From Actinomycetes bacterium (GTDB lineage Bacteria; Actinomycetota; Actinomycetes; DATJPE01), in the NCBI GenBank assembly GCA_035506535.1, contig DATJPE010000073.1, positions 1 to 64,000 of the forward strand: 64,000 bases of DNA. Direction: 5' to 3'. Of the stretch, positions 10,302 to 15,943 are shown piece after piece; position 1 is the stretch's first letter; each line of letters opens with the position of its first letter. The position numbers were made by a program, and so were the translations under genes. The notes below the pieces were generated by a model. The model was given only the letters and a program-made list of their open reading frames with translations. It had not been told where the DNA came from and did no database searches.

Positions 10302-12002
10302 GTGAGCGACACCATCACCACCGATGCCCCGACCGAGCGTCCCAAGCGCCGTACGGGCGGCCTCAACGGCATGGTCCTGTCCGAGTTGCAGCAGATCGCG
10401 GGCGAGCTCGGCATCCCCGGAGCCTCCAAGCTGCGCAAGGCGCAGCTCGTCGAGGCCATCACTGCTGCCCGAGGCGGCAGCCCCAGCAGCAACGAACCGG
10501 CTGCGCCCCCCGCGCCGGCCCGCAACGGGCACGCACCCCGTGAGCGCGACGAGAGCCAGCCTGGCGTGGAGCCGACCGAGCAGCCCTCGGCCACCCCTGA
10601 CCACTCCCCTGAGCAGGCCGCCGAGACCGGCCGGGCGCCCCGGGAGCGCGCCGAGTCGCGCAGCGACGGACAGCGCGACCGTACTGGCGAGCAGCGCGAG
10701 CGACAGGGCCAGACCGGCGCCCAGCGCGACGAGGAGTACTACGACGGCAACCGCGGCCGGCGACGTCGTGGACGCAACCGCGACCGTGGCCGCGGACGTG
10801 ACCGCGAGCGCTTCGGCGGGACCGACGGGTCCGGCGAGCCCGTGATCAACGACGACGACGTGCTCATCCCCGTCGCCGGCATCCTCGACGTCCTGGACAG
10901 CTACGCGTTCGTGCGCACCAGCGGCTACCTGCCCGGACCGAACGACGTGTACGTCTCCTTGGCCCAGGTGCGCCGCTACGGGCTGCGCAAAGGCGATGCC
11001 GTCACCGGCGCGGTCCGCCAGCAGCGCGAGGGCGAGCGACGGGACAAGTTCAACGCCCTCGTCCGCCTCGACAGCGTCAACGGCGCCGAGCCCGAGAGCG
11101 CACGCGAACGGGTCGAGTTCGCCAAGCTGACCCCGCTGTACCCGCAGCAGCGCCTGCGCCTCGAGACCGAGCCCTCCAACCTGACGACCCGGGTCATCGA
11201 CCTGGTCGCGCCGATCGGCAAGGGTCAGCGCGGGCTCATCGTCAGCCCGCCGAAGGCCGGCAAGACCATGGTCCTGCAGGCGATCGCCAACGCGATCACG
11301 CGCAACAACCCTGAGTGCCACCTCATGGTCGTCCTCGTCGACGAGCGGCCGGAAGAGGTCACCGACATGCAGCGCACGGTGAAGGGCGAGGTCATCGCCT
11401 CGACCTTCGACCGTCCCGCGGAGGACCACACGACCGTGGCCGAGCTGGCCATCGAGCGCGCGAAGCGCCTCGTCGAGCTCGGTCACGACGTCGTCGTCCT
11501 GCTGGACTCGATGACCCGGCTCGGGAGGGCGTACAACCTCGCCGCCCCCGCCAGCGGCCGCATCCTCTCCGGCGGCGTCGACTCATCGGCGCTCTACCCG
11601 CCCAAGCGGTTCTTCGGCGCGGCTCGCAACATCGAGCACGGTGGGTCCCTGACCGTGCTCGCCACCGCGTTGGTGGAGACCGGCTCGAAGATGGACGAGG
11701 TCATCTTCGAGGAGTTCAAGGGCACCGGGAACATGGAGCTCAAGCTCGACCGACGGCTGTCGGACAAGCGGATCTTCCCCTCGGTCGACGTCGATGCCTC
11801 GGGCACCCGCAAGGAGGAGATCCTCCTCTCGCCCGAGGAGCTGAAGATCGTCTGGAACCTCCGGCGGGTGCTCCATGCCCTCGACCAGCAGCAGGCCATC
11901 GAGCTGCTGCTGTCCAAGCTGCGGGAGACCAAGAGCAACTACGATTTCCTGCTCCAGGTCCAGAAGACGACGCCTCAGGCGAACGGCCACACCGCCGACT
12001 GA
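10302..12002 (+). CDS. rho: transcription termination factor Rho
   Basis: Hexameric RNA-dependent ATPase that ends untranslated transcripts. The 566 residues show a Rho N-terminal domain (about 18-52, LSELQQIAGELGIPGASKLR), then a long low-complexity insert rich in Arg, Asp, Glu and Gly (about 55-180), as in actinobacterial Rho. The cold-shock-like RNA-binding domain follows (about 190-260, SYAFVRTSGYLPGPNDVYVS), and then the RecA-type core with P-loop SPPKAGKT, VVLLDSMTRLGRAYN and the R-loop region. The GTG at 10302 fits the AAGGA site; a GTG four bases upstream is in another frame. Confidence 0.97.
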   Translation: MSDTITTDAPTERPKRRTGGLNGMVLSELQQIAGELGIPGASKLRKAQLVEAITAARGGSPSSNEPAAPPAPARNGHAPRERDESQPGVEPTEQPSATPDHSPEQAAETGRAPRERAESRSDGQRDRTGEQRERQGQTGAQRDEEYYDGNRGRRRRGRNRDRGRGRDRERFGGTDGSGEPVINDDDVLIPVAGILDVLDSYAFVRTSGYLPGPNDVYVSLAQVRRYGLRKGDAVTGAVRQQREGERRDKFNALVRLDSVNGAEPESARERVEFAKLTPLYPQQRLRLETEPSNLTTRVIDLVAPIGKGQRGLIVSPPKAGKTMVLQAIANAITRNNPECHLMVVLVDERPEEVTDMQRTVKGEVIASTFDRPAEDHTTVAELAIERAKRLVELGHDVVVLLDSMTRLGRAYNLAAPASGRILSGGVDSSALYPPKRFFGAARNIEHGGSLTVLATALVETGSKMDEVIFEEFKGTGNMELKLDRRLSDKRIFPSVDVDASGTRKEEILLSPEELKIVWNLRRVLHALDQQQAIELLLSKLRETKSNYDFLLQVQKTTPQANGHTAD

Positions 12003-12140
12003 GCGGGCCCGGGCTGGACTGAGCCATCGGTCAGCAGATGTGAGGCTCTTGACACGAACAGTTGTTAAAGTCCAGCGCCGAACGGGTCGAACCTCCTCAG
12101 GAACCGCCTCATCCGCAGTCTTCCTGAGAAGGGCTCGATC

Positions 12141-12770
12141 ATGTCCCGTTCCGACCAGCGTCGCCGCCGCGCGCTGCGTGCTGCCGCCCCCGTCGCCGGC
12201 CTCCTGGCCGTCGGCCTGCTGGTCTGGCAGGGCAGCACCGCGGCCTTCTCGGCCACGACGACCAACACCGGCAACGCCTGGGCCACCGGCAACCTCGGTC
12301 TGACCAACAACGGTGGTACCGGCAGCTTCAGCGGCTCCACGACCGGCATCTTCGCCGAGACCGGGCTCAAGCCCGGGTCGACCGGCGCCAAGTGCATCAC
12401 CGTCTCCAGCAGCGGCACCCTCGCGGGCAACCTCCGCCTGTACCGCGGCACGTTCAGCGGGTTGAACGCGACGAACCTCGCCACAAACCTGAACATCACC
12501 GTCGACGCCCAGACCGGCACCGCCACGACCAACGTCCTGGCCAACTGCACGGGTTACACCGGCGGTACTGCCGGGGCGCTCTACAGCGGCACGCTGAACG
12601 CGTTCGGTACCACGTTCGGAACCGGGTCCACGGCGGTGGCGCTGACCGGAACGCCGACCGAGCGCGTCGTCTACCGGATCGGCTGGACCTTCCCCAGCTC
12701 CGTGACCGACAACACGCTGCAGGGCAGCAACGTCGCCACGGACTTCACGTGGGAGGTCGACAACACCTGA
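12141..12770 (+). CDS. exported protein with a SipW-type signal peptide (TasA/CalY-like)
   Basis: A 209-residue exported protein. A basic N-terminus (RRRRALR) and hydrophobic core (residues 17-35) end in TAAFSATTTNTGNAWATG, the signature seen after SipW-dependent signal peptides in TasA/CalY-type and related actinobacterial proteins. The mature part is Thr/Gly/Ser-rich and predicted beta-strand, with two cysteines that could form a disulphide. It probably sits outside the cell as a surface or fibre component; its exact function is unknown. The next gene encodes the matching SipW-type peptidase. AGAAGGG precedes the ATG. A TTGACA hexamer is present at 12049, but the TAAAGT that follows is only 11 bases away, so the promoter is unclear. 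Confidence 0.8.
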   Translation: MSRSDQRRRRALRAAAPVAGLLAVGLLVWQGSTAAFSATTTNTGNAWATGNLGLTNNGGTGSFSGSTTGIFAETGLKPGSTGAKCITVSSSGTLAGNLRLYRGTFSGLNATNLATNLNITVDAQTGTATTNVLANCTGYTGGTAGALYSGTLNAFGTTFGTGSTAVALTGTPTERVVYRIGWTFPSSVTDNTLQGSNVATDFTWEVDNT

Positions 12771-12785
12771 TCCGTCGCCAGGATC

Positions 12786-12820
12786 CGCGTCGGCCCCAGT
12801 CCTCGACTGGGGCCGACGCG
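12786..12820 (+). terminator. perfect 16-bp hairpin between the SipW substrate and peptidase genes
   Basis: Positions 12786-12801 and 12805-12820 are exact inverted copies with loop CTC. The stem is almost all G:C and no T run follows, so it would be a high-GC, U-less terminator or mRNA-processing/stability hairpin. It could make the upstream exported protein more abundant than the peptidase. Confidence 0.7.
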
Positions 12821-12876
12821 CGTTCGGCGCTAAAGGATCCGAGCCAATAGGCCGAACAGGTGATGGGAGGTGACCG

Positions 12877-14502
12877 ATGTCTTCGCTTGCCGCGCCTGAA
12901 CTGGTCACCTCGGACCAGCCGGAGCCGCGCTACAGCAGATGGCGACTGGTCCTAGGGGTCGTTGCGCGCACCTGGTTGTGGTTCATCGTGGGCTGCCTGC
13001 TGGTCACGCTCGTGCCGATTCTCATCGGCTGGCGCCCGTACGTCATCGACAGCGGCTCGATGTCCCCGCGCATCAAGGTGGGGGACGTCATCCTCGTCTC
13101 CCCGGAGAAGGACCCGCAGAAGCTGCTCGGCCACGTCGCGACGTTCGATGACCCCGGATTCCCCGGCAAGGTGAAGTCGCATCGCGTGATCGCGATCAAC
13201 AAGGACGGCACGCTGAAGACGAAGGGCGATGCCAATGCCCAGCCGGACAGTGACCCAGTGCCGATCTCCACCGTGCACGGGATTGGACGGCTGCTCGTCC
13301 GCTGGGTCGGGCTTCCGATGATCTGGATGCAGCACGGTGCGTGGCTCAGGCTGCTGGCCTTCCTCGCGACCCTGGTGCTGGCAGGATGGGCGGTCGCCCG
13401 GGACTTCGAGCCGGACGAGCCTGAGGACGGCGACGGCGACGACGAGGACGACGACGAGGGCTCCGGCCCTGCGGCCGCCGGCGTCCCCGGTCCGCTCATC
13501 GACTGGGTCTCGCCCACCCAGGTGGCCGCCGCCCGCCCCTTCCGGTTGCCGAAGTGGCCCGCGCGACTGGCCGGCGGCTCGTTCAGAGCCGTCCTTCTCC
13601 GCACGTCCTTCCTCGCCGTGGCGAGCCTGCTGCTGGTCCTCCCCACGACCATGGCGGCCTTCGCCGCGACCAGCAAGAACACCGGGAACAGCTGGGCGGC
13701 GCCGAAGTACGACTACACGACCCAGGTCAACGCCCTGGGGCCGTACCTCTATTGGAAGCTGGACGAGACCGGGACCACGAACACGGTAGCGACGGACAGC
13801 TCCGGGAACAGCCGGACCGGCACGTACAACGCGTCGAACGCGAGCGGTACGACCTGGACCGCCAACGCCGGCGCCACCTACTACACGAGGGGCGTGACAG
13901 GCGCTCTCGTCGACTCGAGCACGAACAACGCGGTCACCATCGTCAGCAAGCAGTCATGCATCAACACGACCTCGACGACCCTGATCAACGGGCAGACCCC
14001 CGTGTCGGTCGTCGTGTGGTTCAAGGTGGCGAACGGCTACACGGGGGGCGGCAAGATCGCGGGGTTCGAGAAGCCGCAGGTCGGGGTGGCAGTGCCGTCC
14101 ACAGGGACCTACGACCGCCACCTGTACATGGACGGCAACGGCCATGTCTGGTTCGGGGTCTACAACAACGGCTTCTACACCGTCCAGTCCGCCAATGCGC
14201 TCAACGACGGCAACTGGCACATGGCGGTCGGCACCGTCGGTCCCTCCGGTACCAAGCTCTACATCGACGGCGTGCTCCAGGGGACGTCGGCGAACACCGC
14301 GGGTGAGAGCTCGACCGGCGTGTGGCGGGTCGGCTGCGGCAACCTGGCGGGCTGGGGTGGCTCGTGGAACGGGCCGAACAACCCGGGCACGAGTACGAGC
14401 ACCACGGCCAACATGCCGTTCCTGGGGTCGGTGGACGAGTTCTCGGTCTTCGCATCGGAACTGACCGCCGCCCAGATCTCCTTCCTCTACTTCACTCGCT
14501 GA
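12877..14502 (+). CDS. SipW-type signal peptidase fused to a SipW-like signal and a LamG domain
   Basis: A 541-residue chimera. Residues 24-50 form a membrane segment. The S26B peptidase domain follows, with catalytic Ser61 in DSGSMSP, His102 in KSHRV (the ER/SipW type, not the Lys of LepB) and Asp118 in KGDAN. A second membrane segment spans about 157-174, then an acidic, probably cytosolic linker (178-195) and a third hydrophobic stretch (238-258) ending MAAFAATSKNTGNSWA at 259-274. That junction closely copies the signal-peptide end of the upstream gene. Residues 285-541 are a LamG/concanavalin-like domain (YWKLDETG, LYIDGVLQG, GSVDEFSVF). Inference: the enzyme may cut itself and release the LamG part. 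GGGAGGTGACCG before the ATG is a strong ribosome-binding site. Confidence 0.85.
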   Translation: MSSLAAPELVTSDQPEPRYSRWRLVLGVVARTWLWFIVGCLLVTLVPILIGWRPYVIDSGSMSPRIKVGDVILVSPEKDPQKLLGHVATFDDPGFPGKVKSHRVIAINKDGTLKTKGDANAQPDSDPVPISTVHGIGRLLVRWVGLPMIWMQHGAWLRLLAFLATLVLAGWAVARDFEPDEPEDGDGDDEDDDEGSGPAAAGVPGPLIDWVSPTQVAAARPFRLPKWPARLAGGSFRAVLLRTSFLAVASLLLVLPTTMAAFAATSKNTGNSWAAPKYDYTTQVNALGPYLYWKLDETGTTNTVATDSSGNSRTGTYNASNASGTTWTANAGATYYTRGVTGALVDSSTNNAVTIVSKQSCINTTSTTLINGQTPVSVVVWFKVANGYTGGGKIAGFEKPQVGVAVPSTGTYDRHLYMDGNGHVWFGVYNNGFYTVQSANALNDGNWHMAVGTVGPSGTKLYIDGVLQGTSANTAGESSTGVWRVGCGNLAGWGGSWNGPNNPGTSTSTTANMPFLGSVDEFSVFASELTAAQISFLYFTR

Positions 14503-14643
14503 CTTCACGCGCTGACCCCGGGAATCCCGCCGAGCTCTGTCGCGTTTGGGCGGGTGGCCACGGCCTGGCAGACTGTTGGGCCGCAACCCAGGTCCGGTTC
14601 ACGTGCGCACGGCACGACCCGGCGCCATCGGAGGAGTCATCCC

Positions 14644-14868
14644 GTGAAGAGCGACATCCACCCGGAGTACGTCGAGACGCAGGTCACCTGTTCCTGCGGC
14701 AACACGTTCACCACCCGAAGCACCGCGAAGAACGGCATCATCCACGCCGACGTCTGCAACGCCTGCCACCCGTTCTACACGGGCAAGCAGAAGATCCTCG
14801 ACACCGGCGGCCGCGTCGCCAAGTTCGAGCAGCGTTTCGGCGGGAAGAAGGCCGGCTCGGCCAAGTAG
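14644..14868 (+). CDS. rpmE: 50S ribosomal protein bL31 (zinc-binding type)
   Basis: A 74-residue ribosomal protein. It opens [10 protein letters not shown] and carries four cysteines in the C+ (zinc-binding) arrangement: C16 and C18 in TCSCGN, C38 and C41 in [13 protein letters not shown]. Paralogues without cysteines replace this form under zinc limitation in other actinobacteria. The GTG at 14644 is chosen because it gives the canonical bL31 N-terminus and has GGAGGAG upstream. It sits directly before prfA, the normal order; the SipW pair separates it from rho. Confidence 0.96.
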
Positions 14869-14875
14869 GGCTGTC

Positions 14876-15943
14876 GTGTTCGAGCACGTCGAGGAGCTCG
14901 TGCGCGAGCACGACGAGCTGCAGTCCAGGCTGGCCGACCCGTCGGTGCACGCCGACCAGGCCACCGCCCGGCGCCTGGGGCGACGCTTCGCGGAGCTGTC
15001 GCCGATCGTCGACACCTACCGCTCGTGGGAGGCGGCCGGCGCCGACCTGGACACGGCGCTGGAGCTCACGGCCGAGGACCCCAGCTTCGCGGTCGAGGCG
15101 GAGAGCCTCGTGGCGCGACGCGACGAGCTCGCCGAGCGCCTCCAGCACCTGCTGATCCCCCGTGACCCCGACGACGACCGCGACGTGATCCTCGAGGTCA
15201 AGGCCGGCGAGGGCGGCGAGGAGTCCGCGCTGTTCGCGGGCGACCTGGTCCGGATGTACCTCCGGTACGCCGAACGTCGCGGCTGGCGTACCGAGGTCAT
15301 CGACGCGCAGCCCTCGGACCTGGGTGGCTACAAGGACATCGCCCTGGCGGTCAAGGCCAGGGGCAGCGCGAAGCCGGGCGAGGCGCCCTTCGCACGGCTG
15401 AAGTACGAGGGCGGCGTCCACCGGGTGCAGCGCGTCCCCGCGACCGAGTCCCAGGGCCGCATCCACACCTCCGCCGCGGGGGTGCTGGTGCTTCCCGAGG
15501 CGGAGGAGGTCGACGTCACGATCGACCCGGCCGACCTGCGCATCGACGTCTACCGGTCCTCGGGCCCGGGTGGGCAGAGCGTGAACACCACCGACTCCGC
15601 GGTCCGCATCACCCACCTGCCCACCGGGATCGTCGTGTCCTGCCAGAACGAGAAGTCCCAGCTGCAGAACAAGGAGCAGGCGCTGCGGATCCTGCGTTCG
15701 CGCTTGCTGGCGGCCGCGCAGGAGGAGGCCGCCGCTCAGGCGGCCGACGTCCGCCGCTCCCAGGTCCGCACCGTCGACCGCTCCGAGCGCATCCGCACGT
15801 ACAACTTCCCCGAGAACCGGATCAGCGACCACCGGGTCGGCTACAAGGCCTACAACCTCGACCAGGTGCTCGACGGCGACCTCGACGGCGTCGTGCAGGC
15901 GTTGGTGGACGCCGACCTGGTCGCGCGCCTGTCCGGCCCGTGA
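14876..15943 (+). CDS. prfA: peptide chain release factor 1
   Basis: Class I release factor of 355 residues that recognises UAA and UAG on the ribosome. Residues 1-100 form the helical N-domain. The central part has the catalytic GGQ in [17 protein letters not shown], followed by the RF1-typical [19 protein letters not shown]. The RF1 codon-recognition PxT-type tripeptide appears as PAT in [12 protein letters not shown]. The GTG start lies seven bases after rpmE. Its stop overlaps the prmC start (GTGA), which fits because PrmC methylates the GGQ glutamine of this protein. Confidence 0.97.

Follow-up and report, generated by a model that had tools for sequence, protein, structure and literature searches.

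Organization of the locus

The window (the whole stretch of DNA that was analysed, 64,000 nucleotides) contains a two-gene operon on its forward strand, which in this genome lies between rho and rpmE/prfA (10302-15943). Gene 1 (12141-12770, forward strand; P0002, 209 amino acids) encodes, according to profile and fold matches, a putative TasA/camelysin-like fibre subunit with a SipW-type signal peptide. Gene 2 (12877-14502, forward strand; P0001, 541 amino acids) is a single intact open reading frame in the window, in which profile matches and an AlphaFold2 (AF2) model reveal a SipW-type peptidase followed by a SipW-type signal and a LamG domain. Directly ahead of its ATG at 12877 a Shine-Dalgarno-like GGGAGGTG can be read (12865-12872, forward strand). 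The coordinates, both reading frames and the peptides quoted in a first-pass annotation of this DNA were all correct when the sequence was read again. The operon occupies the same place between rho and rpmE/prfA in family f38 (L083, L086 and L087), and is found elsewhere in family f27.

The two genes are separated by a perfect 16-bp GC-rich hairpin (12786-12820, forward strand), which on the basis of its fold energy and its relatives is a possible attenuator. The intergenic region folds at -63.9 kcal/mol (z -6.0), and hairpins of 14-16 bp with different sequences are present between the same two genes in five relatives (L086, L106, L087, L109 and L108); in several other relatives no comparable intergenic hairpin was found. 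A terminator scan returned nothing with a T run, the 16-bp hairpin itself being without one. The C. perfringens sipW-bsaA operon has a terminator with readthrough after bsaA (PMC7395162), and by analogy the hairpin may cause the peptidase to be expressed at a lower level than the fibre subunit.

Gene 1 resembles TasA

Taken alone, gene 1 matches no Pfam (including PF12389) or NCBIfam entry. When its family profile (A4) was compared to the PDB sequences, however, TasA came first (5of1, E=2e-6; 8aur, E=3e-6). The best PDB match of the AF2 model in Foldseek was likewise the TasA fibre 8aur (E=5.1e-5, at a TM-score of only 0.43-0.47), which is also the only fold match of this model below 1e-3. In addition, gene 1 is homologous to a PF12389 protein on another contig (C74) of the same genome. 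Both sequence homology and a beta-sandwich fold are thus found for gene 1, each of them distantly, and judged by profile and model its product is a distant TasA/camelysin-type protein. Fibre formation by donor-strand exchange would fit the gene 1 product as far as its N-terminal strand pattern only.

The signal peptide (12141-12242, forward strand) was aligned with approximately 60 SipW-adjacent substrates, giving a predicted cut between A34 and A35-F36; A34 is nearly invariant. A homologue of gene 1 stands directly before the fusion gene in 21 LamG loci, 20 of which were paired automatically; at L143 the homologue (365-970) is located inside an over-extended call of the fusion gene, in another frame. 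Second TasA-like copies are seen beside the fusion operon at three loci (L078:4481-5278, L087:4664-5032 and L163:3070-3705), one of them apparently truncated.

Gene 2 starts with an ER-type signal peptidase

The peptidase domain (residues 34-162; 12976-13362, forward strand) matches TIGR02228 (sigpep_I_arch) at 58.3 bits, against a cut-off of 51.85. Its catalytic residues Ser61 (13057-13059), His102 (13180-13182) and Asp118 (13228-13230), all on the forward strand, are invariant across 21 homologous fusions, as is Asp124, which agrees with the S26B peptidase that the first-pass annotation had proposed with this same triad. Gene 2 has the Ser-His-Asp arrangement of ER-type enzymes instead of Ser-Lys, and the A3 profile matches SEC11C (E=2e-11) and SEC11A (E=7e-11). 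Against the Bacillus SipW equivalog model NF046067 it scores 40.5 bits, below the cut-off of 190 bits; by these profile scores the peptidase is a SipW-like enzyme and not the Bacillus SipW equivalog.

The AF2 model, which was built with 21 aligned sequences, predicts the catalytic part and the LamG domain well. It contains helices at residues 21-49, 156-174 (the second membrane helix; 13342-13398, forward strand) and 235-254, with disorder at 184-234 and 255-276. The linker between the second and third helix (residues 176-234; 13402-13578, forward strand) is acidic in its first half and basic before helix 3, and is predicted to be cytoplasmic and disordered given its charge counts and its pLDDT (below 50 over residues 184-234); it includes a 12-bp tandem repeat (13426-13461). 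Helices and charge counts agree with the membrane spans, acidic linker and third hydrophobic stretch described earlier from the letters alone, and the in-out-in-out topology suggested at that time fits gene 2.

The third helix ends like a SipW-type signal

The third hydrophobic helix and its c-region (residues 235-260; 13579-13656, forward strand) form a predicted internal SipW-type signal, based on a substrate profile and on conservation. It ends in T-M-A, followed by the predicted cut (A260/A261, where the first-pass annotation had guessed at a position near residue 260) and then A-F. The NCBI model for SipW-dependent signals (TIGR04088, cut-off 19 bits) gave no match in P0001 or P0002, and because it recognises neither signal the assignment rests on a profile built here. 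For this purpose we aligned the signals of approximately 60 stand-alone substrates, i.e. separate genes with mature parts homologous to the gene 1 product and nearly all located near SipW genes, and scored the post-peptidase region of every fusion. The internal signal of gene 2 reaches 19.1 bits. With the same profile, the highest of 1,100 shuffled regions reaches 9.0 (99th percentile 3.8), and the peptidase domains of the same proteins score at most 5.0. The likeness of the third hydrophobic end to SipW-substrate signals is therefore far above that of shuffled sequence, and a peptidase and a SipW-type signal indeed share one chain, as had been claimed for enzyme and substrate.

Conservation is concentrated at the predicted cut. 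P1 is Ala and P3 is Ala, Thr or Ser in all 21 LamG fusions, P2' (+2) is mostly Phe (17, with Leu in two, Met and Tyr in one each) and +13 is mostly Trp (17, with Phe in three). Over the interval from W150 to Y280, Ala260 is the sole residue that is invariant among the 21 fusions. Helix 3 itself is among their most variable parts; hydrophobic cores of signal peptides are variable. Release of the LamG part by a SipW-type cleavage is likely on the strength of these patterns.

The LamG part and its predicted N-terminus

The remainder of the protein is a predicted extracellular LamG/ConA-like domain (residues 280-541; 13714-14499, forward strand), seen with PF13385, AF2 and Foldseek. PF13385 matches residues 364-535 at 49.6 bits (gathering cut-off 27.6) and the domain is modelled with confidence, so that the LamG assignment of the first reading stands. 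A Foldseek search with the whole fusion model is dominated by ConA-like domains, including the receptor-binding domains of clostridial toxins; such matches reflect a common fold and say nothing about toxicity. The label 'lectin' would follow from the LamG/ConA-like fold only.

Cleavage after Ala260 would leave a new N-terminus (residues 261-275, AFAATSKNTGNSWAA; 13657-13701, forward strand) that resembles a donor strand and matches residues 35-49 of gene 1, with F and W equally spaced in both. The likeness between the signals of the two genes thus continues past the cut, up to +14. Fusions and fibre subunits from the same operon have a mean BLOSUM62 score of 43.8 against 35.8 for random pairs (none of 10,000 permutations being as high), and for +4 to +14 alone the scores are 29.2 and 22.5, both comparisons being inflated by shared ancestry. 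The similarity of P3-P14' to the subunit of the own operon corresponds to what is seen in TapA, which has an N-terminus like the donor strand of its fibre subunit; the Ig-like domain of TapA is absent from the LamG part of gene 2, which has LamG instead. By analogy, the LamG part may work like TapA without being a TapA. Given that the similarity extends to +14, it suggests that the LamG part is more than a surface lectin and has a donor-strand role like that of TapA; in the simplest reading, the LamG protein would prime or cap the fibre after its release, as TapA does. It could also be that the similarity of P4'-P14' reflects recognition by the peptidase rather than a donor strand.

Comparison with known systems

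In TasA the donor strand (residues 28-38) directly follows the cut, F29 and F39 pack into neighbouring subunits, and the N-terminus of TapA resembles this strand (PMC9674648). TapA, which is present in amounts as low as those of SipW, donates its N-terminus to initiate filaments (PMC10151520). The B. subtilis tapA-sipW-tasA operon shares with the fusion operon an ER-type peptidase beside a TasA-type fibre subunit and a minor partner with the same signal type and an N-terminus like the fibre donor strand, and in both the peptidase and the minor partner are coupled. It differs in that here these two are one polypeptide, the minor partner carries LamG instead of an Ig-like domain, and there are two genes instead of three with the fibre subunit placed first. 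C. perfringens sipW-bsaA (PMC7395162) and B. cereus sipW-tasA/calY also have a SipW dedicated to a camelysin-like fibre protein, but they contain neither a fusion nor LamG.

Fusions across Actinomycetota

We sampled 395 genomes of the class and then searched two groups further. SipW-type genes with long C-terminal extensions are common among the 395 genomes. The first-pass annotation had proposed to look for the same domain order in other genomes, and it is indeed shared by 21 SipW-LamG fusions in four families. A search of the phylum with P0001 added a LamG fusion (G701) and two fusions to other exported domains (G696 and G659), each with a TasA-like gene in view. No paper naming SipW together with LamG was found in the open-access literature. 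The pairing of these two genes is found repeatedly in the phylum; it resembles a condensed form of the biofilm-fibre system known from Bacillus and seems not to have been described before.

In a tree of the peptidase domain the LamG fusions fall in one clade (support 100/99), which also contains a few members that are unfused or fused in another way. A second clade of fusions (100/94; L063, L067, L072, L074, L077, L069, L082 and L044) is set apart from it. Members of this second clade also combine a SipW peptidase with an exported C-terminal domain, have a TasA-like gene nearby and mostly end their third helix in A-x-F/W/Y, whereas their C-terminal domain is Ig-like or unassigned and not LamG. 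Judging by the tree, peptidase and exported substrate probably became one chain on two or more occasions in Actinomycetota, although an alignment of only 147 columns does not allow a precise count.

Some further arrangements were observed. At L063, L067, L074 and L077, clusters next to pdxT-type genes show an alternation of stand-alone SipW genes, genes for fibre-like proteins and genes for SipW fusions whose exported domain is Ig-like or unassigned. Two genes (L048:1441-2628 and L096:2568-4202) encode a SipW-type peptidase fused to an exported domain whose tail is LPXTG-like (LAxTG, then a helix and a basic end); the aromatic +2 motif is absent from both. At L073, L085, L088 and L079 a SipW-like peptidase is followed by a DUF5305-like region with an extra membrane helix and no SipW-type cut motif; PF17231 was found in four members of A2. 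The signal profile gives noise-level scores for the DUF5305 types and the LPXTG-like types, and neither was included among the fusions of the present kind.

Which enzyme may cut the fusion

Besides the fusion, the source genome encodes a second SipW-type enzyme on contig C74 (locus L099, 1896-3651 and upstream), where a TasA-like protein, SipW and LamG are encoded in the same order, the LamG protein having its own N-terminal signal. In this paralogue SipW and LamG are separate genes, and the SipW domain is placed on another branch of the tree. The two genes encode 299 and 302 amino acids, respectively, and overlap by approximately 50 bases. The C74 LamG protein is 32% identical to the fused LamG over 165 amino acids. 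Given this gene order and a related LamG with its own signal, the fusion looks like a SipW that was joined to the substrate encoded after it.

With a second SipW in the genome, it might be argued that the signal in gene 2 is cut in trans only, by the C74 enzyme or by another copy of the fusion, and that the fused peptidase spares its own chain. SipW enzymes act in trans in Bacillus, which is in favour of this view. We nevertheless consider it less likely than not. In five genomes (G135, G175, G287 and G603, 99-100% complete, and G413, 88%) no SipW-type peptidase over the cut-off was found besides the fusion, and no TasA-like protein besides the product of the adjacent gene. In these genomes the neighbour must be processed by the fusion, in trans, and gene 2 probably processes the gene 1 product in the same manner. 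Moreover, the own signal of these fusions, if cut by a SipW, must be cut by the fusion, either in cis or between copies. A chain that cuts itself would be plausible, and by sequence this is indistinguishable from cutting between copies.

A second alternative is that helix 3 is never cut. Gene 2 would then encode a three-helix membrane protein that displays LamG at the membrane, perhaps as an anchor for outgrowth of the TasA-like fibre, and the peptidase would serve gene 1 only. The same donor strand could anchor without release, and AF2 shows helix 3 as an ordinary helix. An anchor, however, needs no -3/-1 rule or aromatic P2', and yet Ala260 is invariant in variable surroundings and the region after helix 3 is predicted to be disordered, as for a cleavage site. 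We therefore regard an uncut helix as improbable.

The chance that the housekeeping SPase I cuts the third helix as a conventional signal is smaller still and indeed slight. An SPase I-like gene is present in the genome (contig C35) and the A-x-A-like c-region would satisfy such an enzyme, but the motif is that of SipW substrates. A contribution by ordinary SPase I is unlikely, since Phe at +2 (P2') and the surrounding TasA residues hinder SPase I of E. coli, by which the TasA signal is poorly processed (PMC10269814). Finally, an assembly or sequencing error or a missed stop is ruled out for practical purposes by 21 uninterrupted LamG fusions, among them those in single-contig genomes (G303, G593 and G559), with G701 lying outside the class, even though the source genome is a draft of 102 contigs and L023, which was counted neither way, reads as two open reading frames with the break at two masked bases within a repeat.

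A model for the operon

Taking together the domain content, the signal and its conservation, the operon, the fibre homology and the genomes with a sole peptidase, we favour, at a probability of roughly two in three, a TasA/TapA-like fibre system made up of two genes, with a lectin-like substrate attached to its own peptidase. Gene 1 would provide the subunit of a minimal TasA-type extracellular fibre, and gene 2 a dedicated ER-type (SipW) peptidase in one chain with a LamG protein, the latter being a substrate of SipW type as well. The gene 2 chain would insert in-out-in-out and thereby bring the end of helix 3 to the same outer face of the membrane as the catalytic site. A SipW-type peptidase would then cut gene 2 after Ala260 and the gene 1 product after Ala34; in genomes with the fusion only, this enzyme would be the fusion itself, in cis or between copies. 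The released LamG protein would start with a strand that mimics the donor strand of the fibre subunit, and with such a mimic at its N-terminus it probably initiates or caps the fibre through strand complementation, in the manner of TapA with TasA. We further infer that the LamG part may add a binding domain to the fibre, and the fusion would fix the ratio of peptidase to minor subunit at one to one.

A more specific version, which we put forward tentatively, is that of a peptidase that matures itself in cis. The enzyme and, in equimolar amount, a lectin-like initiator or tip would here come from one polypeptide, and the freed N-terminal donor strand of the latter would start a TasA-like fibre at the very site of subunit release, the joining having arisen at least twice in Actinomycetota.

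To our knowledge, TasA-type fibres and SipW peptidases have been studied almost only in Bacillota. The fusion operon would let one ask what form a TapA-like role takes outside Bacillus and whether a signal peptidase can act in cis. The two-gene version offers a simple system for studying how the initiation of a fibre is tied to signal cleavage, and in genomes with one peptidase and one fibre gene the whole model would be addressable through two genes.
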